Below, in pieces: positions 21,662 to 29,692 of a stretch of DNA of 64,000 bases. The DNA is taken from NCBI GenBank assembly GCA_025059075.1, contig JANXDZ010000001.1, positions 187,686 through 251,685 on the forward strand, given 5' to 3'. The notes under the pieces were generated by a model. The model saw only the letters and a list, made by a program, of their open reading frames with translations, was not told where the DNA came from and did not search any database. Made by a program: the position numbers and the translations under genes. The first letter of the stretch is position 1. The number at the start of each line of letters is the position of its first letter. This stretch comes from Sulfolobales archaeon. Lineage in GTDB: Archaea > Thermoproteota > Thermoprotei_A > Sulfolobales > Desulfurococcaceae.

Positions 21662-21996
21662 TTCGGCGTGGCTCCGCCAGCCGCCCACGGGCTCTGTAGA
21701 AGGGCCTGGGGAAACACCGCACTCCACGCAGCGCCACGGCCCCTCAATGGGGCACGGCTAGCAGCCGTGGCAACGGCACAGAAACGAGACGGCCGCCACA
21801 ATATGGCTGTGAAGCAGGTAGGCCGCTGGTGACAGCTGGCTGTAAGCTGCAGAGGAGCTGTGGCGGATTCGTTGAAACGGCCGACCCGTGGGGAGCAAGG
21901 CCGCATCAGGGGATGAATGCTGCGGGATCCCTGGAGTAGGCCGCTTAGCCAAATGCGGTTGATACAGAATGCGGGTTATGGCGGAGCCGCGCTTTG
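21662..21996 (+). ncRNA. rnpB: RNase P RNA
   Basis: A GC-rich island in AT-rich DNA with the conserved features of archaeal RNase P RNA, which processes tRNA 5' ends. The ends pair as P1 (CGTGGCTCCGCC near 21667 with GGCGGAGCCGCG near 21980). Internal landmarks are GGGGAAACACCGC, CAACGGCACAGAAACGAGACGG and, near the 3' end, GATACAGAATGCGGGTTAT, the P4 partner region. A TATA-like GTTAATTA (21633-21640) lies about 26 bases upstream of the inferred 5' end. Exact ends are estimates. Open frames on the opposite strand here are an artefact of GC content. Confidence 0.9.
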
Positions 21997-21999
21997 ACT

Positions 22000-22530
22000 C
22001 TACTTAGAGCTACTTGGTTTCTTAACAAATGACTTCTCTACTTCTATGAGTTCTTCAATGCTCCTCGCTTTTGAATATTCCTCTAAAGGCTCTTTATTTA
22101 ATTCTAGAAAGGTCTTAAGCCATTTAAATAGTCCAGCAAGCTTTAACGCCACCTCTACATGGCCAGTTATGTATAAAGCAGCTATTACTGCTTCAATACT
22201 GCTTAGGATCATTGGCTTACCGTAATTAATGGGGTTTGCTGCAATTAAATATGGAAGCCTCCTATGCTCTCCACGGATCTTGCTAAAATGATCTCTAGAG
22301 ATCTTTTTCCATGAAGCATCTACAACCACTAATCCATGCACATCGATATAAGCCTTATCCCATGGACCAAGAGGTTCTTGTGCAAAGGGATTAAGCACTA
22401 AAGCACTTAGAGGAGGTCTGCGGGTAAGAGTGGCTAGACCTTTTCTAACCATTTTGAGAGCAGTGTTTTTATATGGATCGTCTTCTCTGAAGTGTACAAC
22501 ATAAATCCTTACGCTAATGCCTTTAGACAT
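22000..22530 (-). CDS. tsr3: Tsr3-like rRNA aminocarboxypropyltransferase
   Basis: A 176-residue SPOUT-class protein that adds the acp group to a modified uridine in small-subunit rRNA during ribosome maturation, using S-adenosylmethionine. The family core is visible: LVVVDASWKKIS, RRLPYLIAANPINYGKPM and LSSIEAVIAALYITGH. Length is usual for archaeal Tsr3. The gene is convergent with rnpB and ends a few bases from it. No partner N1-methyltransferase (Nep1) lies in the window. Confidence 0.9.
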   Translation of the reverse strand: MSKGISVRIYVVHFREDDPYKNTALKMVRKGLATLTRRPPLSALVLNPFAQEPLGPWDKAYIDVHGLVVVDASWKKISRDHFSKIRGEHRRLPYLIAANPINYGKPMILSSIEAVIAALYITGHVEVALKLAGLFKWLKTFLELNKEPLEEYSKARSIEELIEVEKSFVKKPSSSK

Positions 22531-25044: not shown

Positions 25045-25299
25045 GGACATCAGCGAACACTTCACTCCATGTAGCCCCCCACCCCTCTACTTCCACTGGA
25101 GAGCAGGGGGTCTGGTAGAGTGTGAGCTGAAGTCATAATAAAGATAGAGATATCATAAATTATAAAAATTTATAAAGATGAGATCTCTTTAAAGATCGCT
25201 TAGAAGCGTTTGTATAAACCTGGCTGAGTCTCCACACGCTCCCGAGAATTTTCCAGTGGAAGTAGAGGGGTGGGGGCGTAACCAGTGTTCACCATGTCC
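25045..25299. repeat. About 255-base nested inverted repeat, possible structured RNA or MITE-like element
   Basis: A perfect 25-base inverted repeat joins 25076-25100 with 25252-25276 (arm ending CTACTTCCACTGGA). Further paired blocks share nearly the same centre (25167-25180): GGACAT 25045-25050 with ATGTCC 25294-25299, GAACACT 25055-25061 with AGTGTTC 25284-25290, GAGTGTG 25118-25124 with CACACGCTC 25233-25241, AGAGATATCAT 25146-25156 with ATGAGATCTCT 25178-25188, and TTATAAA 25160-25166 with TTTATAA 25169-25175. The whole folds into one long hairpin with an AT-rich tip. No open frame or transposase is inside. The strand is undecidable; I recognise no known RNA family. Confidence 0.8.
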
Positions 25300-25404
25300 T
25301 GATCGAGAAATGTTTAAAAGGCTGCTCCAGTCGAATTGAAGGTTCAATTAACTCCCCAGTTTTCTTATGAATATGCTTAAAATGATCTTTTATTTATATA
25401 AACA

Positions 25405-25511
25405 TTAACTCCCCGGTTTATCCCCTCAAACGCGACTCGAGACGGCTGCGCCAGCCTCTATAAACTTGCATGGCTTGTGGACTCGCGTTTACAGAGCGGA
25501 ACTGGGGAGTT
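25405..25511. repeat. Second stem-loop element with nested stems and a TTAACTCCCC motif
   Basis: AACTCCCCGGTT (25407-25418) pairs with AACTGGGGAGTT (25500-25511; one wobble), and inside it AAACGCGA (25428-25435) pairs perfectly with TCGCGTTT (25483-25490). A small GC hairpin, GGCTG-CGC-CAGCC, lies at 25444-25456. A further copy of the left motif (TTAACTCCCCAGTT) lies at 25348-25361, and a related TTAACTCCCC is at about 62779. ACA follows the inner stem at 25491-25493, which recalls an H/ACA RNA, but the pocket geometry does not fit. The remainder of the gene-free stretch 24875-25796 shows nothing I can name. Confidence 0.5.
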
Positions 25512-25796
25512 AGGATTTATTTAAAAGCCGAAAAGCTTAAGCTACTTAAGGATGTGGAATATTGTGGAGGCTACTTGATGCATTTAGAAAACTGAGGGTT
25601 TAGCTCTAACGTAAGTTTATGGTTTGTTCATTGCCTCACATTGTTTCTCCATAGACAACTACATGAAAAGAGTTTATACGTAACAGTAATAGCAGAAGAA
25701 TAACATCAATCAATATGAAGCTCAAAACAACTACACGGGGCTCTTCTTCCATGTTATACTAAATGTGGACTGCTTCTCTTTTGATATAGTATACAT

Positions 25797-25964
25797 CTAT
25801 GTTTTCTGGATCGCTGGCGATAACTCCATTTTAGCCTTAACTCTGTATTCAACAAATCTGTCTTCAGGTGAAAACCTCGGAGGATGAGGTACAATCACTT
25901 GAGAACTGCATATTGGACAACGATCCTTTAGAGTATACCTTCCGCACTTAATGCATCTCCTCAT
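25797..25964 (-). CDS. nop10: Nop10, H/ACA ribonucleoprotein subunit
   Basis: I read this 55-residue gene by hand; it is too short for most gene lists. It starts MRRCIKCGRYTLKDRCPICS, giving a compact zinc ribbon, and continues with VPHPPRFSPEDRFVEYR, the conserved Nop10 core. Nop10 bridges the pseudouridine synthase Cbf5 and L7Ae in the guide-RNA-dependent pseudouridylation complex. It starts 8 bases after the aIF2-alpha stop codon, the usual archaeal gene order, and is the last gene of the cluster. Confidence 0.93.
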   Translation of the reverse strand: MRRCIKCGRYTLKDRCPICSSQVIVPHPPRFSPEDRFVEYRVKAKMELSPAIQKT

Positions 25965-25972
25965 GAGCCACT

Positions 25973-26776
25973 TCACTTCTTCTCACGCTCAAAACTGAAT
26001 GATACCCCAAGAGTTTTTGAAAGTTCTTCAGCTACATTAACTACGGCATTTAAAGCTTTTTCAGCTTCTCCATATTCTCTCGCTTCAATTTCCACGGTAT
26101 ATCGAGGAGCGCCCATGGTATATATATTGACGTTGACTTCTCGAGAAGCTCTTTCCCCAGCCTCCTTTAAAGCTAAAAGGATCTTCTTTATGTCCTCTAA
26201 GCCCTTTGGCTTAAGGCTTCTCAACATTACTACTCCTCTTATGCTAACTTTTTTCACAGTGATGTGCTTTCTCGCTTCACTTATTAACGGCTCAACCCAT
26301 TCCTCAGGCACTCCTGCTTCAATGAGGGCTTCATGTCCTCTAACAACAGCTTCTTCAAGACCAGTTAATGGATCTCCATAGTGATTATCTAGCTTCCACA
26401 CTACATCTCTATATGCTTCATCAATGCCCCTGCCTAGTTTCTGAGAAACTATTTCAGCTATTTTAGCTCCTTTCATCAATCTCTTATAGTGCTGCATTTT
26501 CCTTCTTCTATCCCCTTCAGCTACTCTCTTTAAGCTAACGTCAACCATCGACTTCACTTTATCAACTCTAATTACTTTAGCAACAACTTTTTGGCCCTCC
26601 TTTACTACTTCCTTTACATCCTTCACCCATCTACTTGAAGCCTCACTCCACGGTAGGTAGGCCTGTAGATCTCCATATTCATCTAGTTTAACGTAAGCTC
26701 CATATTCAAATACCTTATCTACAGTTGCTACAACTAGCTCTCCTACATCAGGGAGAGGTTTTTGAGGCTTGATCAA
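25973..26776 (-). CDS. eif2A: Translation initiation factor aIF2, alpha subunit
   Basis: The 267-residue protein has an N-terminal S1 OB fold (PDVGELVVATVDKVFEYGAY, residues 9-85), a central helical domain and a C-terminal alpha-beta domain (RGVVMLRSLKPKGLEDIKK). It is part of the heterotrimeric factor that brings initiator tRNA to the ribosome. The phosphorylatable region of eukaryotic eIF2-alpha is not obviously conserved. It follows S27e by 17 bases and precedes nop10 by 8, in the widely conserved archaeal order. Confidence 0.95.
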   Translation of the reverse strand: MIKPQKPLPDVGELVVATVDKVFEYGAYVKLDEYGDLQAYLPWSEASSRWVKDVKEVVKEGQKVVAKVIRVDKVKSMVDVSLKRVAEGDRRRKMQHYKRLMKGAKIAEIVSQKLGRGIDEAYRDVVWKLDNHYGDPLTGLEEAVVRGHEALIEAGVPEEWVEPLISEARKHITVKKVSIRGVVMLRSLKPKGLEDIKKILLALKEAGERASREVNVNIYTMGAPRYTVEIEAREYGEAEKALNAVVNVAEELSKTLGVSFSFEREKK

Positions 26777-26793
26777 GCTTCCACCAACTGTAT

Positions 26794-26997
26794 TTACTCA
26801 AGTACTGATAATACTTCAGCATTAATTATTCTCGCTTTTCCACCAGTAGGCTTAACTATTTGTGTTCCACATAAAACACACTTCGCTGGATAACTAGCGT
26901 GGCTGAAGATCACGTTTTCATATCCACATACACTGCACTTAACTTTAATAAAATTACTTCTTGACGTAGGTATTGGAGTTCTAAGCCTCTTTCCCAA
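26794..26997 (-). CDS. rps27e: Ribosomal protein S27e
   Basis: A 67-residue small-subunit protein with the family zinc ribbon: KVKCSVCGYENVIFSHASYP followed by AKCVLCGTQIVKPTGGKARI. Length and motif match archaeal S27e closely. It starts one base after the L44e stop codon and precedes aIF2-alpha, so translation is probably coupled along this operon. Confidence 0.95.
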   Translation of the reverse strand: MGKRLRTPIPTSRSNFIKVKCSVCGYENVIFSHASYPAKCVLCGTQIVKPTGGKARIINAEVLSVLE

Positions 26998-26998
26998 C

Positions 26999-27286
26999 TT
27001 ACTTCACCGCTTCTGAAACCTCTACTTTCTTAAGCCTAATCCCTTCTCTATGAACTATGTAGCCGCACTTAGCGCACTTGAGCTTTAAGACTACTTTTTT
27101 CGTCGTTTTTGCAAATCTCTTTTGCTCAGGCTTCCTCTTACTGCCATAGCCCTCCTGTTTCCTCCTATACCTCCTCTCTCCTTCAGCTAAAGCCCTTCTA
27201 CTCCCAGCTTTATAGATAGTTACTGAGTGCTCTACGTGAGCCTTGCACTTAGGGCAATACGTCCTAATAACCTTGGGTACCTTCAA
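26999..27286 (-). CDS. rpl44e: Ribosomal protein L44e
   Basis: A 95-residue large-subunit protein. The zinc ligands are in YCPKCKAHVEHSVTIYKAG at the N-terminus and LKCAKCGYIVHREGIRLKK near the C-terminus, separated by a highly basic segment. It binds near the E site. It follows the GINS-position gene by 13 bases and is the first ribosomal gene of the cluster. Confidence 0.95.
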   Translation of the reverse strand: MKVPKVIRTYCPKCKAHVEHSVTIYKAGSRRALAEGERRYRRKQEGYGSKRKPEQKRFAKTTKKVVLKLKCAKCGYIVHREGIRLKKVEVSEAVK

Positions 27287-27299
27287 CTTCTTCCCCTGC

Positions 27300-27830
27300 T
27301 TAAGTTAGCCTGGATCCTTCTAGAGGTTTTAAATAGTTATCAACTAACTCCTTTAAAATACTATACACTGGCTCAATTACTCCAAGAGCATACAGCAAGC
27401 ACGCCATCCACAACTCTACGCTAAATACATCCCCCCTCCTCCAGGACTTATCACTAATTGAGAAGTCTGTAGTTGCTTTAACTATAGCTCTCAAGCTTGA
27501 ATCAATGAGAGTGAGGCCTGAGAAATAATCTATGAGGAACCTAATTACTTTAGCTAAAGCAGCTCCAATACCTTTATCAATAGAATTAACTAGTTCCAAC
27601 GAGGGATTAAGCAGTAATTTAGTGTATCTAGCTCTTAAAAACATTGATGCATCTCCCTTAAGCTTATTAAGACTCTCAACAAACATCTCCATGGATAAAT
27701 CACTCACAGCCGCTAGTGAAGCAGCCTCCTTCAATGAATCCATTACTTTCCTAAAGTCCTCCTCAGTGAAGACTATTGGCTTAGCAGACTTCAACTCCTC
27801 CTTAGCGCATATAACGTATCTAATGCTCAC
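27300..27830 (-). CDS. Probable GINS-type replication protein (by position)
   Basis: I do not recognise the 176-residue sequence directly. It is mostly helical (FTEEDFRKVMDSLKEAASLA, then KVIRFLIDYFSGLTL) and ends LVDNYLKPLEGSRLT. Its place between priS and L44e is where many archaea carry a Gins15/Gins51 homolog, a subunit of the Cdc45-MCM-GINS helicase. Its start lies within the end of priS (11-base overlap), which fits a shared replication role. The GINS call is inference from synteny and helical content; alternatives remain open. Confidence 0.5.
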   Translation of the reverse strand: MSIRYVICAKEELKSAKPIVFTEEDFRKVMDSLKEAASLAAVSDLSMEMFVESLNKLKGDASMFLRARYTKLLLNPSLELVNSIDKGIGAALAKVIRFLIDYFSGLTLIDSSLRAIVKATTDFSISDKSWRRGDVFSVELWMACLLYALGVIEPVYSILKELVDNYLKPLEGSRLT

Positions 27831-28968
27831 TTGCCAAAACCTCTACTCCACTAGCTCTTACTAAATATACCAAGCCTTTTAAAGCAAGGTAAAAGCCTAT
27901 GTAAGCCTCCACTTTTTCTACAAACCCCTTCCGTAAATTCACCTTCCTATCTAGAATAGTAATCCCCGCTAAGTCGTAAGCAGGCTTAACTAGTACTTCT
28001 CCATTCATTGCCCTAAAGTCGTGGAAGTTGTAATTGAACTCATCGGATACGTCAAGGGGCTTAGATAAGAGCCCTGACTTACCGTTAATTGAGTTAGAAA
28101 ACCTTGACAGCCTAGAGATATCCATGGTTACTGCTGGATCTATACTGATCTTTAGGGCATCAATTGCGTCGATCACCCGATCATAGTTGTAAGCCTCATA
28201 ATCCCCTATGACTAGAGGGGATTCAACGGACTTTAAATAATCTCTTACTCTAGCCCTTAACCCATATTCATGCCTTCTATGGAAGAGGGCTACATAGCCT
28301 CCGCGTCTCTCTAACTTTACCTTAGGGAACACTCTTCCTGGATCCAGTGAGCCCAGCTGAATATAGTCTACTAACATCCTCCTGGAATCTTTATCGAGCA
28401 GCGAGAGGTGCTTGTCTTCAACTCTAATGTGGAACCCTCTATTTCCCGAAAACATAGTTGATATCTTTGAGGCCCCGAAATCTTCCTCAAGTATTCTCAC
28501 AATGGCTCTAGCATCCATCCAAGCCTTCTTCAGGCACTCATTGCTTAATTGAGGTAAGCTCACTAGATTTGTTGAGCTACATTGAGGACACTTCGCCCCT
28601 CCATTAATCCAGATATACCCACACTTACTGCATATTAAAACTGAGTGGCTGCATTCAGGGTAGTGATCTGCATCTATATCGAATAAGACATCAGCCTCCC
28701 TAAATCCCTTAGATTCCATGTCGGGGTTGCCTGGATCATCGTATGTAGCACTACTATAGTATAGGTGTAGAGGAGGATTCTCAATTACATAATCGTAGAG
28801 CTTGCTCATAGAGGTAAAGTGGAGGTGTCTGACGTAGGATTTTGAGCCAAAAGGCTGTACAGCAACCTCCCTCATTGATAGAAGTGGCGGTTCTTTAAGG
28901 GGCCTCTTCGCATAGTAGTTCCTAATTATTTGCTTTAGGAATTTATTACTCCGTTCTTGGAGCGACAT
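27820..28968 (-). CDS. priS: DNA primase small (catalytic) subunit PriS
   Basis: The 382-residue protein is the catalytic subunit of the archaeo-eukaryotic primase. DVLFDIDADH carries the metal-binding aspartates; an inserted zinc knuckle follows at once (HSVLICSKCGYIW, CPQCSS). The second motif, FSGNRGFHIRVED, binds the nucleotide triphosphate. Its start overlaps the end of pcn by 23 bases. The large subunit PriL is not in the window. Confidence 0.93.
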   Translation of the reverse strand: MSLQERSNKFLKQIIRNYYAKRPLKEPPLLSMREVAVQPFGSKSYVRHLHFTSMSKLYDYVIENPPLHLYYSSATYDDPGNPDMESKGFREADVLFDIDADHYPECSHSVLICSKCGYIWINGGAKCPQCSSTNLVSLPQLSNECLKKAWMDARAIVRILEEDFGASKISTMFSGNRGFHIRVEDKHLSLLDKDSRRMLVDYIQLGSLDPGRVFPKVKLERRGGYVALFHRRHEYGLRARVRDYLKSVESPLVIGDYEAYNYDRVIDAIDALKISIDPAVTMDISRLSRFSNSINGKSGLLSKPLDVSDEFNYNFHDFRAMNGEVLVKPAYDLAGITILDRKVNLRKGFVEKVEAYIGFYLALKGLVYLVRASGVEVLASEH

Positions 28969-29692
28969 AGAATTTTAACCTTCCGCCTTCAGGGAGTATG
29001 AACTCGATCTTGCATGGTATTGCTGAAGCGTACTCAAATACTGCTTCGTCAGCTGCCTGTGATGCTACAGCTATATCTGATAGGTAGTCAATTGAGTAAG
29101 ACGATCTCTCTTCACTATCCGCTGAAAACTCTAGTAACATGCCTCTTTCCTCAGAAAGCTCTAGCTCAGCTTCCCCAAGATCGCTTGTTGTTCTAGCAAT
29201 AAGTGCTCTCTCACTGGGCTTAGTGATGAACTCTACGGCTTCCCCCATGACTTCAAGCTCACTCACTATATCTCTAAATACAGTACTCACCATTCTAGCC
29301 CTTGCTTTAAACTGTATGCTGAGTTCAGGTACTTGCTCAGCTAATGACTGTATCGATGGAAGTATAAACTTCCTGACTCCTCTACCTTTGAGTGCTACTA
29401 CGAGCCTCCCGCTATCCATCACGCCTAGCTCAAGCCTATCGCTTTTAGTAGATCTCTTAAGTACTCTGCTTAGATCGCTTAAGTTTACACCAACGGTTAC
29501 TTCTCCATCAACTTCGAACTCCTCAAAGCCTGTGTGTGGAATAGTGTAGTCAACGAGCACTACCTTAGATGGATCTAGGGATCTAAGCCTTAATCCCTCG
29601 CTGTTAATTATGAAGCTGGCTTCCTCGACGATGTTGCTTATAGATGCTATGGCGTACTTCCACACTCTAGCATCTGGGAACACTAGCCTCAA
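28946..29692 (-). CDS. pcn: PCNA sliding clamp
   Basis: The 248-residue protein starts MRLVFPDARVWKYAIASIS, has the conserved INSEGLRLRSLDPSKVVLVD and the interdomain region, and ends near IPCKIEFILPEGGRLKFYV. It encircles DNA and tethers PolB, Fen1, ligase and other PIP-box proteins; PolB in this window has such a box at its C-terminus. Thermoproteota often have several PCNA paralogs forming heterotrimers; only one is seen here. It is co-transcribed with priS. Confidence 0.93.
   Translation of the reverse strand: MRLVFPDARVWKYAIASISNIVEEASFIINSEGLRLRSLDPSKVVLVDYTIPHTGFEEFEVDGEVTVGVNLSDLSRVLKRSTKSDRLELGVMDSGRLVVALKGRGVRKFILPSIQSLAEQVPELSIQFKARARMVSTVFRDIVSELEVMGEAVEFITKPSERALIARTTSDLGEAELELSEERGMLLEFSADSEERSSYSIDYLSDIAVASQAADEAVFEYASAIPCKIEFILPEGGRLKFYVAPRTE

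Follow-up and report, generated by a model that had tools for sequence, protein, structure and literature searches.

The 255-base intergenic inverted repeat at 25045–25299 of the window, the 64,000-nucleotide stretch of a Sulfolobales archaeon genome analyzed here, is very probably a chromosomal replication origin of the oriC1 (Orc1-1/ORB) type, as predicted from its sequence. The initial annotation described the element as a nested hairpin; its hairpin-like look is, in all probability, a by-product of two near-identical origin recognition boxes (ORBs) that face in opposite directions. We are highly confident that it would represent a known kind of element, now found in another genome and far from its initiator gene. 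We found no origin description for Desulfurococcaceae in the open-access literature searched, and the element provides a precise, testable prediction for this family.

Predicted origin architecture

The features that make up the predicted origin are as follows.

25045–25299, no strand: reported 255-base element, a predicted ORB–unwinding element–ORB origin core plus a weak outer inverted repeat (AGTGTTC..ATGTCC)
25076–25101, minus strand: ORB-left, full, G-tail leftward (outward); TCCAGTGGAAGTAGAGGGGT, 2 mismatches to the published common ORB, 40.2 bits with a position weight matrix (PWM)
25091–25115, plus strand: possible degenerate third ORB, TTCCACTGGAGAGCAGGGGGTCTGG, head-to-head with ORB-left and sharing a dyad with it; 14.8 bits
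25102–25250, no strand: spacer with AT-rich core, candidate duplex unwinding element (DUE) by AT profile; not significantly structured alone
25208–25217, plus strand: GTTTGTATAA, probable ucm/UBP site inside the unwinding element, by conservation and position between the ORBs
25251–25276, plus strand: ORB-right, full, G-tail rightward (outward); TTCCAGTGGAAGTAGAGGGGTGGGGG, 40.3 bits with the PWM (the top score of the contig), 0 mismatches to the family pattern

Each arm of the inverted repeat matches a full archaeal ORB (TTCCAGTGGAAGTAGAGGGGTGGGGG) and reads TCCAGTGGAAGTAGAGGGGTGGGGG from 5′ to 3′ toward its G-run. The left box lies on the minus strand and the right box on the plus strand, with G-tails pointing outward and about 174 bp from start to start. 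The PWM scores come from a matrix trained on relatives only, with the window excluded. When the published cross-archaeal ORB motif, TCCA[CG]T[TG]GAAA[TC][GA]AAGGGGT (Ori-Finder 2, PMC4164010), was searched at up to two mismatches, exactly two sites were found in the 396-kb contig, and these are the two arms. Perfect matches to a looser ORB core, TCCANTGGAANNNNNGGGG, are likewise confined to the two arms over the whole 1.34-Mb genome. BLASTN of the locus against 40 family genomes returned matches of 27–29 nt in two of them (G001 and G002), covering the arms only, which was itself a clue to ORB identity. The possible third ORB ranks third in the contig, close to the background of 13–14 bits.

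Between the arms, AT content reaches 83–87% at 25140–25189, with 62% for the whole spacer. In Sulfolobus oriC1, the DUE lies between ORB2 and ORB3, with an 11-bp ucm halfway along; none of the three sites (ORB2, ORB3, ucm) is dispensable in vivo (PMC12141716). The counterpart of ucm in the window is probably GTTTGTATAA, an assignment made from position and conservation rather than from the published ucm letters. Of 19 candidate origins, some of them with weak ORB pairs, 15 contain this motif without mismatch and the other four contain it with one or two mismatches.

By analogy with Sulfolobus, an Orc1-1 monomer (gene G000:C14:58054) would bind each ORB with fixed polarity, and the occupied pair would load MCM helicase onto the DNA between the boxes. 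The AT-rich stretch would then melt, a UBP-like protein on ucm may help MCM to leave, and replication would run in both directions from the element.

Conservation and gene neighborhood

Among the 40 family genomes, the pattern TTCCANTGGAANNNNNGGGGNGGGG (at up to two mismatches) occurs in 10, and the reversed-pattern control gave 0. Nine relatives carry a minus-then-plus ORB pair, some with a weaker second arm, spaced 158–186 bp apart, or 309 in G029. In most family genomes with an ORB pair, GTTTGTATAA lies between the boxes. G001 and G002 both have the arms, again inverted and enclosing AT-rich DNA, and the RNase P RNA gene follows directly downstream. The same-genus genome G017 is uninformative: Tsr3 and aIF2-alpha were not found in it either, so its assembly probably lacks this region.

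The pair recurs at a particular locus, for which the window has the following neighbors.

21668–21990, plus strand: RNase P RNA gene (Rfam RF00373, 176.5 bits), the usual neighbor of the origin in the family
22000–22530, minus strand: Tsr3 (Ribo_biogen_C; PF04034, 2.5e-43), a conserved neighbor

The ORB pair adjoins Tsr3 (PF04034) in nine family genomes and sits about 100–340 bp from the RNase P RNA in nine family members; in the window the latter distance is 3.1 kb, a span that includes Tsr3 and a phosphodiesterase gene. A further Desulfurococcales record (L075) has the same ORB pair, with RNase P RNA as its neighbor in the same 100–340 bp range. Altogether, the ORB–AT-rich core–ORB anatomy adjoins RNase P RNA/Tsr3 in at least 10 relatives. 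Such recurrence makes a simple assembly artifact unlikely. The initial annotation rightly called the region gene-free: no gene lies between 24875, upstream of the phosphodiesterase gene, and about 25800, where Nop10 is found.

Comparison with oriC1 and distance from the initiator gene

oriC1 has been defined experimentally in Sulfolobus (PMC12141716; PMC4010727). The element in the window shares with the Orc1-1-dependent oriC1 of Sulfolobus/Saccharolobus (ORB2–DUE/ucm–ORB3) the inverted full ORBs, the outward G-tails, and the AT-rich core with a conserved motif. It differs in having a perfect 25-bp match between its two ORBs, whose starts lie about 174 bp apart, in carrying two strong ORBs rather than three, and in having orc1-1 on a separate contig. 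The oriC1 of Aeropyrum pernix (Desulfurococcales) corresponds to Sulfolobus oriC1 (PMC10769869). This order-level relative has an Orc1-1-type origin, and we compared it at the level of the Orc1 protein (2v1u).

We also searched the order for GTTTGTATAA at 27–57 bp from TTCCANNNGAA. The combination occurs in 13 of 214 genomes, and the reversed control gave 0 of 214. Eight of the 13 belong to one family of larger genomes (f9), which we call Sulfolobaceae-like, a label of our own that is based partly on the oriC1–orc1-1 layout. A close orc1-1 homologue (51–59% identity) is adjacent in six of these eight loci; apart from one locus that is truncated, all show the ORB–ucm–ORB layout and an additional ORB. 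In its layout, the window element is a homologue of the oriC1 that lies next to orc1-1 in Sulfolobaceae-like genomes, and the ORB–ucm–ORB core would be common to them and Desulfurococcaceae, with the link to the initiator gene broken in the latter.

The genome encodes two Orc1/Cdc6 proteins. One, G000:C14:58054-59130, is of the Orc1-1 type (TIGR02928, 413 bits), and its best PDB match is 2qby_A (Sulfolobus Cdc6-1; E 1.7e-126), followed by 2v1u (Aeropyrum). Its gene is not adjacent to the origin but sits on contig 14. In the complete circular chromosomes of three relatives, the origin-to-orc1-1 distance is about 125 kb (G001), 136 kb (G002), and 137 kb (G020), and no ORB cluster was found beside orc1-1 in the four genomes examined. 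An initiator gene adjoining the origin is usual among archaea but not universal, and the element would be a counter-example to this replicator-next-to-initiator rule. The gene for the second paralogue, G000:C11:166302-167408 (NF001623, 623 bits; best PDB match 1fnn, a Cdc6), is separated from the origin by about 46 kb, and its surroundings (locus L043) showed no ORB cluster that includes the ucm motif.

The distant orc1-1 gene leaves some room for reading the element as an Orc1-binding regulatory site, or as a degenerate or dormant rather than active origin. Base composition, likewise, provides no clear signal. We computed GC and AT skew on the 396-kb contig and on a 400-kb sample of G001; GC skew in the contig dips weakly to a local minimum at about 219 kb, compared with 212.9 kb for the origin, and gene strand dominates the curve. 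A regulatory or dormant site is nevertheless improbable, as constraint acts on the full ORB–unwinding element–ucm–ORB layout across genera, and the pattern used revealed no second ORB pair in the window's genome, G001, or G002. Since the assembly of the window's genome is 92% complete, another origin may be missing from it.

Inverted repeat, fold, and copy number

Letter by letter, the 25-bp arms at 25076–25100 and 25252–25276 are exact reverse complements. Among perfect inverted repeats whose arms lie no more than 600 bp apart, none in the window is as long; the runner-up is a 16-bp palindrome. The initial annotation was therefore correct about the 25-bp repeat, the strongest of its kind here. 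Its further claim of several complementary blocks nested around the same center is weaker. The inner 149 nt without the arms fold no better than shuffled sequences (z = −1.25), and the outer block (GGACAT/ATGTCC plus AGTGTTC) pairs weakly and with gaps (p about 0.017), with no counterpart to its pairing seen in the relatives compared.

The very stable predicted fold of the 286-nt segment (−110.6 kcal/mol, z = −7.95) would fit transcription of 25045–25299 into a structured non-coding RNA or a long-hairpin precursor. This stability, however, is carried by the ORB arms, as the score of the inner region indicates. In relatives, the two arms can match at as few as 16 of 25 positions, with up to nine differences. 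At the low-information positions of the ORB they agree at 51 of 100, compared with 43 by permutation (p 0.06). The compensatory stem changes at the syntenic site that the initial annotation named as a sign of an RNA were not seen in these genomes. Instead, ORB letters are mostly kept, the arms drift at other positions, and the outer pairing is lost, which argues that the binding site is conserved and not the stem. Such variation would be expected of two independent protein sites. Sulfolobaceae-like genomes, moreover, carry these sites as separate ORBs, in the same and in opposite orientations, and no Rfam family reached threshold. An RNA is thus already largely refuted and very improbable.

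At both gathering and relaxed thresholds, Rfam returned only chance matches to eukaryotic miRNA hairpins, far below cut-off. The same search agrees with the initial statement that the element is not SRP RNA, RNase P RNA, 5S RNA, or a tRNA.

The terminal-like inverted repeats and the intergenic position would suit a MITE or a different mobile element with inverted repeats, but this reading is scarcely credible: a single copy exists in the 1.34-Mb genome searched (92% complete), with none of the dispersed copies expected of a mobile element, the arrangement adjoins the same genes in many relatives, the arms fit the published Orc1/Cdc6 site, and the absence of a transposon was borne out. The replication origin reading also retains part of another early proposal, a long hairpin with a chromosomal role; the role stands as a prediction, and the operative feature would be two oppositely oriented protein-binding sites rather than a hairpin. 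For sequence scans in general, this is a caution that inverted ORB pairs can mimic RNA hairpins or MITEs.

Flanking genes and repeats

A more speculative reading, which we regard as improbable, is that the chromosomal origin of this family has parted from its initiator gene and become bound to the RNase P RNA/Tsr3 locus, so that origin firing and RNA-processing gene expression could influence each other. On the other side of the element, a minus-strand cluster at 25800–29692 contains Nop10, aIF2-alpha, two short ORFs, and primase-like and PCNA-like genes. Nop10 and aIF2-alpha were confirmed by Pfam and the rest were assigned by eye, including one of the short ORFs, which is recognizable as a zinc-finger ribosomal protein.

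Other repeats accompany the origins. In G001 and G002 (L007 4860–5400 and L008 4860–5520), several extra repeats of the type GGTTCCAGGGGTAGGATGCCGGTGGA are present, some merging with ORBs; they are possibly the sites of another initiator, and none was seen in the window. Beside the origin in the window, TAACTCCCC[AG]GTT occurs at 25349–25361 (plus), 25406–25418 (plus), and 25500–25512 (minus), and nowhere else in the 396-kb contig as a perfect copy. The segment 25407–25512 can form a stem-loop (z −2.9 for 25330–25540), and this region has no Rfam match. These copies could be sites for a second initiator or regulator, or part of a small RNA.
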